DNA of 64,000 bases from Tritrichomonas musculus (taxonomy: Eukaryota > Parabasalia > Tritrichomonadida > Tritrichomonadidae). Shown one piece after another: positions 55,191 to 60,200 of this stretch (its first letter is position 1; each line of letters begins with the position of its first letter). Under the pieces are notes generated by a model. That model searched no databases and had not been told where the DNA came from. It saw nothing but the letters and a program-made list of their open reading frames with translations. The stretch lies in NCBI GenBank assembly GCA_039105265.1, contig JAPFFF010000056.1, positions 434,001 to 498,000 on the forward strand. The letters are read 5' to 3'. Position numbers and translations under genes: made by a program.

Positions 55191-55229
55191 GCCTCCGGCG
55201 GGACTCGAACCCGCAACCCCAAGATTAAG

Positions 55230-55238
55230 AGTCTTATG
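55230..55238. repeat. Target-site duplication, left copy
   Basis: AGTCTTATG, identical to 55592-55600. Confidence 0.8.
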
Positions 55239-55591
55239 TAGGATGGGTATTTCTATGAGTTAATACAAATTTTGTTTCTCAAAATTGAATTGAAAGAAAA
55301 AATATCAAATATTTATATCTTGCTAGATTATTGATAAATTCAATAATTAAATATATATTTATTTTCATTTAATAATATAATAACAATTTAATAAATTATC
55401 AAATGTTTATAATTATTTATTATTAGAATTTTGAATATATTAGATCTCCTTTCAAAAAATAAAAAGATTCCTCTAAAAAAGTTTCAATATTTCAGAAGAT
55501 TCCTCTAAAAAAGTTTAACTCTCAAACTTGTTAAGATAATTCAAAATTTGTGAAAATTCTCAGAGCTTACACAAATTTTATTAACCAGTCT
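55239..55591. mobile_element. 353-bp insertion in tRNA-Lys
   Basis: AT-rich, non-coding. No clean terminal inverted repeats; GTTAATA-AAATTTG-like words near each end are loosely inverted. Internally AGATTCCTCTAAAAAAGTTT occurs twice (55465 and 55497). The 9-bp target duplication would suit Mutator-like elements, but the family is not established. Confidence 0.75.
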
Positions 55592-55600
55592 AGTCTTATG
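55592..55600. repeat. Target-site duplication, right copy
   Basis: AGTCTTATG, identical to 55230-55238. Confidence 0.8.
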
Positions 55601-55625
55601 CTCTAGCCGGTTGAGCTACGAAGGC

Positions 55626-56408
55626 TTACATTTTTTTCAAATAATATATAAAGTAACTAATATATTAATTTAACAAATATTGAATTCTATTTAAAAAGAC
55701 TTAATTTAATTTCATACTTTGCTTGACATTAAACTTTGTTGATATCTTAGGGAGGCTACTTTATGAAACCGCATAAATACTTATTCATTTTTATAATTGA
55801 ATTTGATGTGACAAAAAAGACCACATTTGAATAGTTTATTTGAATGAATTTGAGAAACCTGTTTTACTGTAAATAATTACCAAAGAAAATCCAGAATTTG
55901 AAAAAGTTCAATTTGTCACAATATCATATTACCACTTGAAATATAAAGTGAAACTTTACATTTTAAACAAATGAAAAAATTGAATGGAAACATTTTTTGG
56001 TGTTCAATTTTCAACCAAACATGGTTCCAAAATATTTTTTTGTTGAAATCCTAACAAGCTCTTAGTATAATTTATTTATTGAAGCAAATGAAAAATATGT
56101 CATTATATCATATTTGAAAAAAAAAAAAAAAGCATTGAAGATTTAATTTGTAGATCCATAGATATTTTATAGTATAATAAACTAAACTAATAGAAATATT
56201 GCTTAATTTTTTTTTCGTTCAGGATATTTTTTTATTTTTTATAATGCATTTCGATGAATTGAATATTTCAATAATAAATTTCAAATTGAATCAAGTTATA
56301 TAAATAAGGGTTCCATTAATCAAAAATTCAATTAAATTTTTGAATCAACAGATCATTTTTTTCAATTTTTCTTTTCACTACTCAACAGAATAATCTAACT
56401 TTTCTAAA
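55626..56408. other. Spacer
   Basis: AT-rich spacer before the PACS-like gene; nothing recognised except the initiator near 56375. Confidence 0.5.
56375..56382 (+). promoter_or_regulatory. Initiator of the PACS-like gene
   Basis: TCACTACT, +1 A at 56377, 32 nt before the ATG at 56409. Confidence 0.45.
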
Positions 56409-56500
56409 ATGTCTTACTCGATTAAACCTGACGAATTAGAACAGAACTTTTTTTCAAATATCAAACCATCTTTTGGCTTGCTTCGTAAAATGAATTTTCA
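56409..56500 (+). CDS. 5' fragment of the interrupted PACS-like gene
   Basis: It starts ATG at 56409 (MSYSIKPDELEQNFF) and reads to MNFQ, where the insertion begins; the frame then stops at 56546 inside the insertion. The residues continue in sense and frame with IPPLSEICFWENI at 57276 once the inserted DNA and one 10-bp repeat are removed. Confidence 0.7.
56491..56500. repeat. Target-site duplication, left copy
   Basis: TGAATTTTCA, identical to 57265-57274. Confidence 0.75.
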
Positions 56501-57264
56501 GACCCTATTAAGGTATTCATTCAATTTTGTAGTATTCAAAAAGTGACAACAAAAATACAAATTTTGCGAAAAATATCATAATAAATTTTAATTTTTTATA
56601 TTAAATATTCATAAAAAAATAATATCATTATATAATATATTTAAATTATTCTATATCTTGCTAAAAGTAGAGATAATTTCATAAATAATCACTCAGCTAA
56701 TCTTTTCAACCTGAGTTAAAATTTGAAAAATTGGACATATTTTTTGATTTTGAAAAGAATTATTTTAAAAAATCAAAAATTCCGACGCTGGGGACTTTAT
56801 TTTGGATAGATTTTTACTTTGAATACTTTACATATTTTTACTTTTCAGAAATCTTTATTTTCTCACAATTATTCAATTGTTTATATCTTACAATCTCACA
56901 ATTATTTCTTATAAAAATGCACAATATTCTGAAGTATATAATAATTTCATAGAATTGATCTCAATTTTCTTATGATTCAAATATTTCATAAAAATTTAAT
57001 TCAATTTAATAAATTAACTAAAAAATATATCTTATATTTAAAATTGCATTTTCCTCATATTTGCTATGATATTTATACAAAACATCATTTTTTTTTCTAA
57101 ACTTATCAAATTGTAAAATTTTCATTCAAAAAGAAAAATTAATTTATTTTTATATTTTACGTTAATTTTACCATTATATTTAGTAAATAAATTGATGTCA
57201 TCATATATTTTATTATATTACAATATGATATCATATACTGCTTTTGTTCAACCTTAATATGGTC
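56501..57264. mobile_element. 764-bp TIR element inserted in the PACS-like gene
   Basis: The ends are GACCCTATTAAGGT (left) and, on the minus strand, GACCATATTAAGGT (right): 14-bp TIRs with one mismatch. A 10-bp direct repeat flanks it. The interior is AT-rich with no transposase. An older relative is at about 37065-37735. Confidence 0.8.
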
Positions 57265-60200
57265 TGAATTTTCAGATACCTCCTTTAAGCGAAATTTGTT
57301 TTTGGGAAAATATTAAAAATTCTAACTATGCACGAAAATATATTGAAGAATGCTTTGATTATCTTTTGTTAAATTGCAGTATCATTAAAGCAACTAATCC
57401 TCAATCCACTCCCCTAGATTCATCAATTTCACATGAAACTGCATCATCAATGAAATCAGTTTTACTGTCTTTAATTCACATTGCAACATTTTATAAAAAC
57501 AAGATTTCAGATAAAAAAAAGAAAGATTCAAGCGCTAATGATATTTCCACGATTCAAGCACTTAATCCTTTAGAAAATAAAGCTTCGATCATAATTAAAA
57601 ATTCATCTTTTCCACAAATAAAAAAAGTTATTGAGCTTATAATTAGGCAACTTTTTTACGAACCAATTAATGTTGTTAATGATATTCCTTCAATGATAAA
57701 TTTTCTTAAATCAACAAATACATCTTCATGCAGAGAACTCGAGTCTACACGATTTTTCAATACAATATTATTACTTCATCGCCTTAAATATGATGATAAT
57801 ACTAAAAAATTGTTTTACCCTAGTGTTGTTGAAATATTGAAATCAAAACTTAAAATTAGTTCAAATTCAACTCAACTTTCTCATAGAATACGCGAACTTA
57901 TTCTATTTTTATATATATATTATCTTGTTATGTCGATCCGTCCAGAACTCAAAGGAAATTTACATCAGATTTTACCCTTTTTAAATGCGAGAATTACAAA
58001 TTCTAATCCTTTTTCATCTTTTTGCCAGCAACTTCTCGAAGTTACAAAGAAAGAAATTAAATACCCTGGCTATTGTTTTTATCAAATGCTGAAATATGCA
58101 TCAGATTTATCACCAGCAACTAACCATACAGTAACCCTATTTTATGATTTTCAATACAAATTATTCCCCAATATGATGTATTGCCGTGAAATGGACAAAT
58201 TCTCATTTAAATTATCATATATAGATTTTGTCAATTATTATTTAACCAACACTCTTGGCGTTCCGTCTGAACAAACAAAGAATTTGTCAATTTCAGATTT
58301 ATTAAAAATATTAGGAATGATAAATTTCAATAGAAAAGACGATAAAAAGATTTTAAGTGCATTTAAACTACAGTCAACCAAGAAAACAGAGAAAACAAAA
58401 AGTAAACGGAGCGAAGAAGAAGATGATAGTGATGATCAAGAAGATAACAGCAACAGCACAGATAGTGAAGGAAAAACGAGTTCAACCAAAGAAAATAATG
58501 TAAAAGTTCCAAATCCACCATATATTCCATTTTCGCTAGTTCGAATTCCACAGAAATTATATCTTAATCCCGACAATCTCATTGTTCTTCAGACCAGTCA
58601 AAAAGTGACACCAAATGACGATGACCAAGACAAGTCTAAAGAGAAGAACAAGAAGAAGAAAGAAGGAAAGAAGAAAGGAAAAAATGAGAATTTTGAAGAG
58701 TCCTACAATGACAAGAAGAAAGGAGACGATGGAAAGGACTATTACCTCTACAACAGCGTGATGCACAAAGTCTATACGGAGGCAGTTTTCAAGCCCATTT
58801 TTGAGTACATGAAGAACAACACGGACGAAGCAGATGATATCATTAATCATCAGATTCTTGTGTGCGGAAACGACTCAGCAATAGGGACGCTTATCATGCT
58901 CCAGCTGATATCGTCGATGCAAACCGATCAAACCGCCAAAAGCAACGGTTTGATTGAAAAATTAAATCTAGAAATTTTTGAGAACGTTAATTTAAAGTAT
59001 TACATTTTCCCATTCAAAAACTCATCGGCAAGTACTCAAATAGCCAATTTTTTGGCCTCTATTGATCCGATTTACGACAAGTTCGTTAAGAACATTTATG
59101 ACCTCACTTCACATATTGCGCCAACTTTTTCAGAGTCATCAACCGTATCGTTCATTCCAGTCGATGAAAATACCGGATTCGAAGTGCAGAAGAAAAATGA
59201 GGCTACCAAACCGCCCAAACCGCCACAACCTCCTAAGAATGACTCAGCAGGCTTGCTCATTGCATCGGAGTCTGGCTCCGATGTAGAATCGAGCTCGGGT
59301 CCCGCCCCAGGTTATTCTGACATTGATGATGAAAAGAGTGAAAAATCAGAAAGCAAGAAAAGTGACACTGAAAATGATTCAGAGAAAAGTGACAAGCCGA
59401 AAAAGTCTGAAGAGCCGGAAGCAGAAAAATTAGAAGTCCAACTGCCACAACCGTCACAACCGCAAACCGCCACAAGTAACGCAAAAACTACCAATGAATT
59501 CGACAACGATAGCCTCTGGACGTGCAACCCAATTCCGTCGTCAATCATGCAGCTGTCCATCCAGCACCTTCTTCTCTTCGCACGCGAGCATGTCGATGTT
59601 CGCGTGTGGCGCTGCGTTCTCTACGTGAACGGCAAGAAGATCGTCATTCCGTTCATTTCAGGCGTCCGTCTTGGCTTCACTTCCGGCAACCAAACTGCGG
59701 CCAGCGCGCAGGGCGCGGCTGGCAGTGCGGCCAACAGTGCGCAAGTTGAAGAGAACAAGCCGAAGCGCCTCATCATCGAAACGACAAATTCAATGAATGA
59801 GACATCTGACCCTCAAAAAGTGAAGCTTGTTTCCTTCTCAATTTGGAACGCAAACATGGAATTGAACTGCGATCCAAGGAGCCCGCTCCTCCTCAAGGAA
59901 GTCTGCTACACGGTGAGCGCGCACACTCAGCTCATGCAGCGCGAGAACCTCGCAGCGAACAGCTCTTACTCGTACTCGTCGAACAAGCTCTCCCTCATCG
60001 ACAGCCAAGACAAGAAGACAAAGAAGAGACTCTCAGTCAACACAAACGCAGTCCCATTCACAAACATGGGACAGTCTGCAATCCAACAAGGCCAAATAAT
60101 TTCACCTCAACCGTCCCAGCAAGCCGCGCAGGCGACGAGCTCTCCAAACCTCAGCAGCGTCGGATCAAACGGAAGCTCAGCCGACATCAACATGAACGAG

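Follow-up and report, generated by a model that had tools for sequence, protein, structure and literature searches.

The interrupted tRNA-Lys(CTT) gene

Positions 55191-55625 of the DNA analysed here, a 64,000-nucleotide stretch of the Tritrichomonas musculus genome referred to as the window, hold on the minus strand both parts of one tRNA-Lys(CTT) gene separated by inserted DNA, and this insertion is, in all likelihood, a MITE that disrupts the gene. When the element and one of the two duplicates at its borders are removed, the flanks form exactly a 73-nt tRNA-Lys(CTT); thus, the split gene with flawless halves described in the initial annotation is real. ARAGORN called tRNA-Lys(ctt) in the joined flanks and not at this locus in the unedited window, and neither Rfam (gathering threshold) nor ARAGORN detected a tRNA at 55191-55625 in the window as it is. 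The features of the locus are the following.

55191-55238, minus strand: 3′ part of tRNA-Lys(CTT), nucleotides 33-72, plus one target duplication copy (nucleotides 25-32); identical to positions 26-73 of the 73-nt sequence
55231-55238, no strand assigned: target-site duplication copy 1, GTCTTATG (8 bp), from the alignment with other copies
55239-55592, plus strand: 354-bp MITE, starting TAGGATGGGTA and ending TTAACCAGTCTA, with boundaries from other copies
55251-55276, plus strand: subterminal repeat, first copy, a 77% match in direct orientation to 55557-55582
55450-55513, plus strand: two adjoining 32-nt units within the element, 84% alike, with one T5 and three T6 runs on the tRNA strand
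55557-55582, plus strand: subterminal repeat, second copy, pairing with 55251-55276
55593-55600, no strand assigned: target-site duplication copy 2, GTCTTATG (8 bp), from the alignment with other copies
55593-55625, minus strand: 5′ part of tRNA-Lys(CTT), nucleotides 1-32, one duplicate copy included, from the joined-flank reconstruction

In hand numbering, the insertion point lies after tRNA nucleotide 32, and the duplicated nucleotides 25-32 run from the end of the D stem through base 26 and the 5′ anticodon-stem strand to the first base of the loop. Introns of eukaryotic nuclear tRNA genes are short, belong to their gene and occupy the canonical site 37/38. The element resembles them in interrupting the anticodon arm region but differs in lying after nucleotide 32, in its 354 bp and in being multi-copy. 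The position had already been described as wrong for a canonical intron, which holds, with the exact point now corrected to after nucleotide 32.

Structure of the element and its target-site duplication

The insertion had been reported as 353 bp of AT-rich DNA; its length is instead 354 bp (55239-55592). In a longer form, obtained from the alignment of 30 loci, its start reads TAGGATGGGTATTT. The terminal inverted repeats are imperfect, matching at 8 of 11 positions in this copy and at 9 of 11 between the family consensus ends TAGGATGGGTA and TAGGCTGGTTA, and both termini are of the TAG type. The longest open reading frame overlapping 55239-55592 found in an ORF scan encodes 29 aa, which leaves the element with no coding capacity. 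The subterminal repeat at 55251-55276 is possibly a transposase-binding region.

The 9-bp string AGTCTTATG occurs at 55230-55238 and 55592-55600, with no further plus-strand occurrence in the window, and had been read as a perfect 9-bp duplication. Eight of these bases (55231-55238 and 55593-55600) form the duplication, while the ninth is a coincidence, since the element itself ends in A. Of the 23 unique copies whose 8-bp duplication is perfect, 8 also match at this ninth base, about as predicted from the proportion of A in the flanks (0.377). The chance of a perfect 8-mer match is 8.4e-5 per site. Because the window is AT-rich, a repeat of such length and spacing is not rare alone: 8-mers repeat at the same spacing at 10 of 63,622 window positions and 9-mers at 4, both counts including the present locus. 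The significance of the duplication lies in its exact placing at the element ends, which recurs in other copies. The 30 aligned loci gave 33 element rows, 31 of them unique, whose ends were resolved with a script that let them move by a few bases and demanded TAG and CTA or TTA ends. Ends could be resolved for 27 unique copies, 23 of which have a perfect 8-bp duplication and four of which match at 7, 4, 3 and 2 of 8 positions; the remaining 4 of the 31 unique copies had no clean ends. Two target patterns were tried on the duplications: T at position 2 or A at position 7 was found in 29 of 46 cases, where the background is 0.372 (p=3.3e-4), and T4/A5 (nnnTAnnn) in 23 of 46 (p=0.05). The T2/A7 bias is the pattern of the Ac group.

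Copy number and age of the family

Using 55242-55594 as the query against an assembly of 193.4 Mb in 746 contigs, we scored 40 of 119 candidates, and each of the 40, the 55239-55592 locus among them, matched at 94-100% identity, so that the element has at least 40 places; four more weak rows were opposite-strand matches within copies. Additionally, end patterns of 26 bases that tolerated at most 3 mismatches matched 74 5′ ends and 63 3′ ends, and the reversed control patterns gave 0 matches. Fifty of the 74 5′ ends were paired with a 3′ end, leaving 24 5′ and 13 3′ ends unpaired, for a total of 87 element places by end patterns. Among the 50 pairs, 29 were exactly 354 bp long, 19 measured 317-372 bp, one 242 bp and one 2255 bp. 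The 31 near-full rows (29 unique places) comprised 26 distinct sequences, with a mean pairwise divergence of 3.5%. Thus, the genome search proposed earlier for the inserted sequence returned a multi-copy element whose other copies carry target duplications of their own.

The 55239-55592 copy is identical at 354 of 354 positions to a copy on contig C4 (L002), whose site is unrelated and whose duplication differs. This identity supports the view that the insertion is recent, as was first proposed from its undecayed halves, and shows that the family moved recently, this copy included. An empty site was also sought by flank searches in the T. musculus assembly (40 of 41 left and 40 of 260 right candidates scored), and neither an empty allele nor a duplicate locus was found. 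On the left, only the tRNA and at most 48 bases of its trailer matched elsewhere (39 other rows); on the right, no other row among the scored candidates spanned 55593-56486, all others being copies of a second repeat described below.

Two copies in opposite orientation lie about 310 bp apart at C45:233471-234487 (L018 and L021), each with its own 8-bp duplication. At C1:10410600-10413100 (L077), a copy is interrupted by some 1.9 kb of other DNA, a nested insertion with no open frame of at least 120 residues.

Superfamily assignment and known systems

Based on its size, ends, copy number and absent coding capacity, the element is, with near certainty, a MITE: it is short and of rather uniform size, multi-copy and non-coding, with terminal inverted repeats and duplications of fixed length. 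Its membership of the hAT superfamily is likely, as pointed to by the 8-bp target duplication, the TAG ends and the many hAT transposases in the genome, and the T2/A7 target bias also fits hAT. The hAT end type begins with C/TA-purine, and the short inverted repeats of the element are of this type. The hAT dimerisation domain PF05699 has 79 matches in the T. musculus genome, versus 2 for PF21787, which we take to be a P-type domain. For hAT elements in general, two papers give 8-bp target duplications and short inverted repeats (PMC3517528, PMC3942097).

No autonomous element with TAGGATGGGTA/TAGGCTGGTTA-type ends was found among the end pairs, five unpaired 5′ ends and 26 hAT loci. These loci showed no such ends; L061 and L092 among them represent a single place, and for fifteen the sequence covered extends to about 1.5 kb either side of the domain. 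Of a total of 79 hAT matches, a single one (contig C3) has a listed element end within 15 kb, and this is the end of an ordinary 322-bp copy (L076), an open frame of which gave no Pfam match. Other candidates were rejected as partners. The 2255-bp pair on C1 is the split copy L077, with no frame of at least 120 residues. L078 holds a copy minus its first seven bases; an end match of 14 bases lies some 1.4 kb from the 3′ end of that copy, and L078 likewise has no frame of at least 120 residues. Among the five unpaired 5′ ends that were read (of 24), one (L082) is a 322-bp-type copy, and L079, L080, L081 and L083 are truncated or rearranged.

Sequence comparisons with the 26 hAT loci were controlled with 200 dinucleotide shuffles and 176 window tiles of 354 bp. 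The 60-bp ends of the element matched these loci no better than shuffles did (39/200 and 66/200 reached the best E). The whole element gave 21 rows, whereas the 200 shuffles averaged 11.4 and 12 of them reached 21. Its best row (L074, E 2.6e-8) was equalled by 1 of 200 shuffles and 4 of 176 other window tiles; the match is to an inner AT-rich stretch, and L074 has no end copy better than 8/11 bases.

A hAT element of a different family was found at C34:293400-296900 (L094). It is 3225 bp long, with an open frame of 614 residues, a confirmed hAT domain, TAG-type ends TAGCCTTTACTT and TAGACTTCACTT matching at 10 of 12 positions, and a perfect 8-bp duplication, ATTATGGG. When 40 of 194 candidates were scored with L094 as the query, short elements with both of its termini and not its middle were present at 33 of the 39 places other than L094 itself; hAT-type miniature elements thus are present, and arise, in the T. 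musculus genome. On the 5′ side, the match starts at precisely the predicted first base in 17 of the 33 and as far as 36 bases outside it in the others; on the 3′ side, 8 of 39 end at the predicted last base and the others 2-8 bases beyond. L094 and its short derivatives are like the 354-bp element in their TAG ends, 8-bp duplication and miniature elements with both termini, but the ends TAGCCTTTACTT and TAGGATGGGTA set them apart as different families.

Among described elements, Mar, a hAT MITE of Drosophila willistoni, is 610 bp long with 11-bp imperfect inverted repeats and 8-bp duplications (PMC3517528). Like the 354-bp element, it is short, AT-rich and non-coding, with imperfect inverted repeats of about 11 bp and mostly intact 8-bp duplications. 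It differs in sequence and in its Buster target nnnTAnnn, which is weak in the 354-bp element, where T2/A7 is enriched; additionally, the 354-bp element differs from Mar in that no full-length relative was found among the loci examined. The Mutator-like elements of Trichomonas vaginalis, a related protist, are also DNA transposons but are coding, unlike the 354-bp element, with duplications of 10-14 bp in part of a table (PMC2725143). Titles and abstract openings in the literature mentioned neither the 354-bp family nor a tRNA gene split by a hAT MITE, an absence that is not proof of novelty.

Consequence for the gene

In the proposed mechanism, a transposase acting in trans would have made an 8-bp staggered cut in the anticodon-arm sequence of tRNA-Lys(CTT), presumably by a cut-and-paste route. 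Repair of the gaps would have duplicated GTCTTATG, the duplications themselves being observed. With the non-autonomous 354-bp DNA transposon inserted, the gene would become a disrupted pseudogene. The A box and B box would be moved 362 bp further apart. On the tRNA strand, the DNA between the halves contains 8 runs of T4 or more, four of them T6, and each of the 30 intact tRNA-Lys genes examined is followed within 25 bases by a T run of five or more, a likely terminator. Since such runs resemble the terminators of the intact genes, RNA polymerase III would be expected to stop before the 3′ half. The earlier reading of a Lys tRNA copy killed by a mobile element is borne out as regards the mobile element, and the split anticodon arm and poly-T runs indicate that this copy is probably dead.

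At least 37 full-length tRNA-Lys(CTT) places remain, 33 identical and 4 at 99% (40 of 90 candidates scored); since so many copies are left, no phenotype is expected. Some of these places may be duplicate contigs: the 30 intact tRNA-Lys genes examined have 26 distinct near flanks. Three sets (L032, L033 and L051; L034 and L038; L031 and L039) are intact tRNA-Lys(CTT) genes with identical near flanks (25 bases on each side), an identity that would reflect segment duplication or duplicate contigs.

Alternative explanations

The initial annotation had offered, as an alternative to a mobile element, an unusual tRNA intron with direct-repeat ends that is removed by the cell. Both halves are intact and join into a perfect tRNA, as such an intron would require, but the same 354 bp are present at dozens of other sites, and only 1 of the 27 unique resolved copies (55239-55592) lies in an ARAGORN-recognised tRNA, the other 26 lying outside one. 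The position after nucleotide 32 rather than at 37/38, together with the T runs between the halves in a genome where the intact genes probably terminate at T5 or longer, also speaks against it, and we consider the intron reading to have a negligible probability. It is hardly more credible that the locus yields some mature tRNA-Lys, with the element removed from the RNA or precisely excised from the DNA in part of the population, which would make the insertion reversible. An assembly join error is as improbable as the intron: a misjoin would not place an exact element, bordered by its own 8-bp duplication, within a perfect tRNA, and the assembly was built from PacBio and Nanopore long reads (PMC11978803).

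A MITE of another superfamily, such as Mutator-like, P or IS481EU, is unlikely, although no transposase with the ends of the element was found among the loci examined, so that the hAT assignment is provisional. The 9 bp first proposed would fit Mutator, and Mutator-like elements are described in Trichomonas vaginalis (PMC2725143) and IS481EU in several parabasalids (PMC10045372). Nevertheless, the duplication is 8 bp, below the 9 bp or more of Mutator, the ninth base agreeing in only 8 of 23 copies. The T. vaginalis duplications span 10-14 bp (PMC2725143, part of a table) and those of IS481EU about 4, 15 or 25 bp (PMC10045372), and against P stand the 2 PF21787 matches versus the 79 for the hAT domain. 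That the element targets tRNA genes is very improbable. One tRNA insertion was observed where 0.057 is expected by chance for 87 places (1,738 tRNAs of 73 bp in 193.49 Mb), which makes the case mildly unlikely for the 354-bp family alone. However, only 1 of the 27 unique resolved copies lies in a tRNA, the duplications vary widely, and many repeat families could produce such a case; since 42.67% of the assembly is masked as repeats, finding one somewhere would be unsurprising. A hAT-like MITE that landed in this gene remains our preferred reading.

Genome setting

The Tritrichomonas musculus assembly comprises 193.49 Mb in 756 contigs, with a GC content of 29.47%, 1,738 tRNAs and 42.67% of its sequence repeat-masked (PMC11978803). 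With the present family, this mouse gut commensal gains a recently mobile hAT-like MITE family, and the locus is a clear-cut natural case of one gene copy disrupted within a large, redundant set of tRNA genes. The insertion could act as a strain marker and lead to the mobilising transposase. It represents ordinary transposon biology, and no concept is changed by it.

A protein with BspA-type LRR_5 repeats adjoins the tRNA-Lys locus; PMC11978803 counts 2,217 T. musculus proteins with this domain. Beside the locus lies a second dispersed repeat of 766 bp (56500-57265), with inverted ends AGACCCTATTAAGG and AGACCATATTAAGG and the 8-bp sequence GAATTTTC on each side, the first 200 or so bases of which match, with 40 of 260 candidates scored, at least 39 further places at 99-100%.
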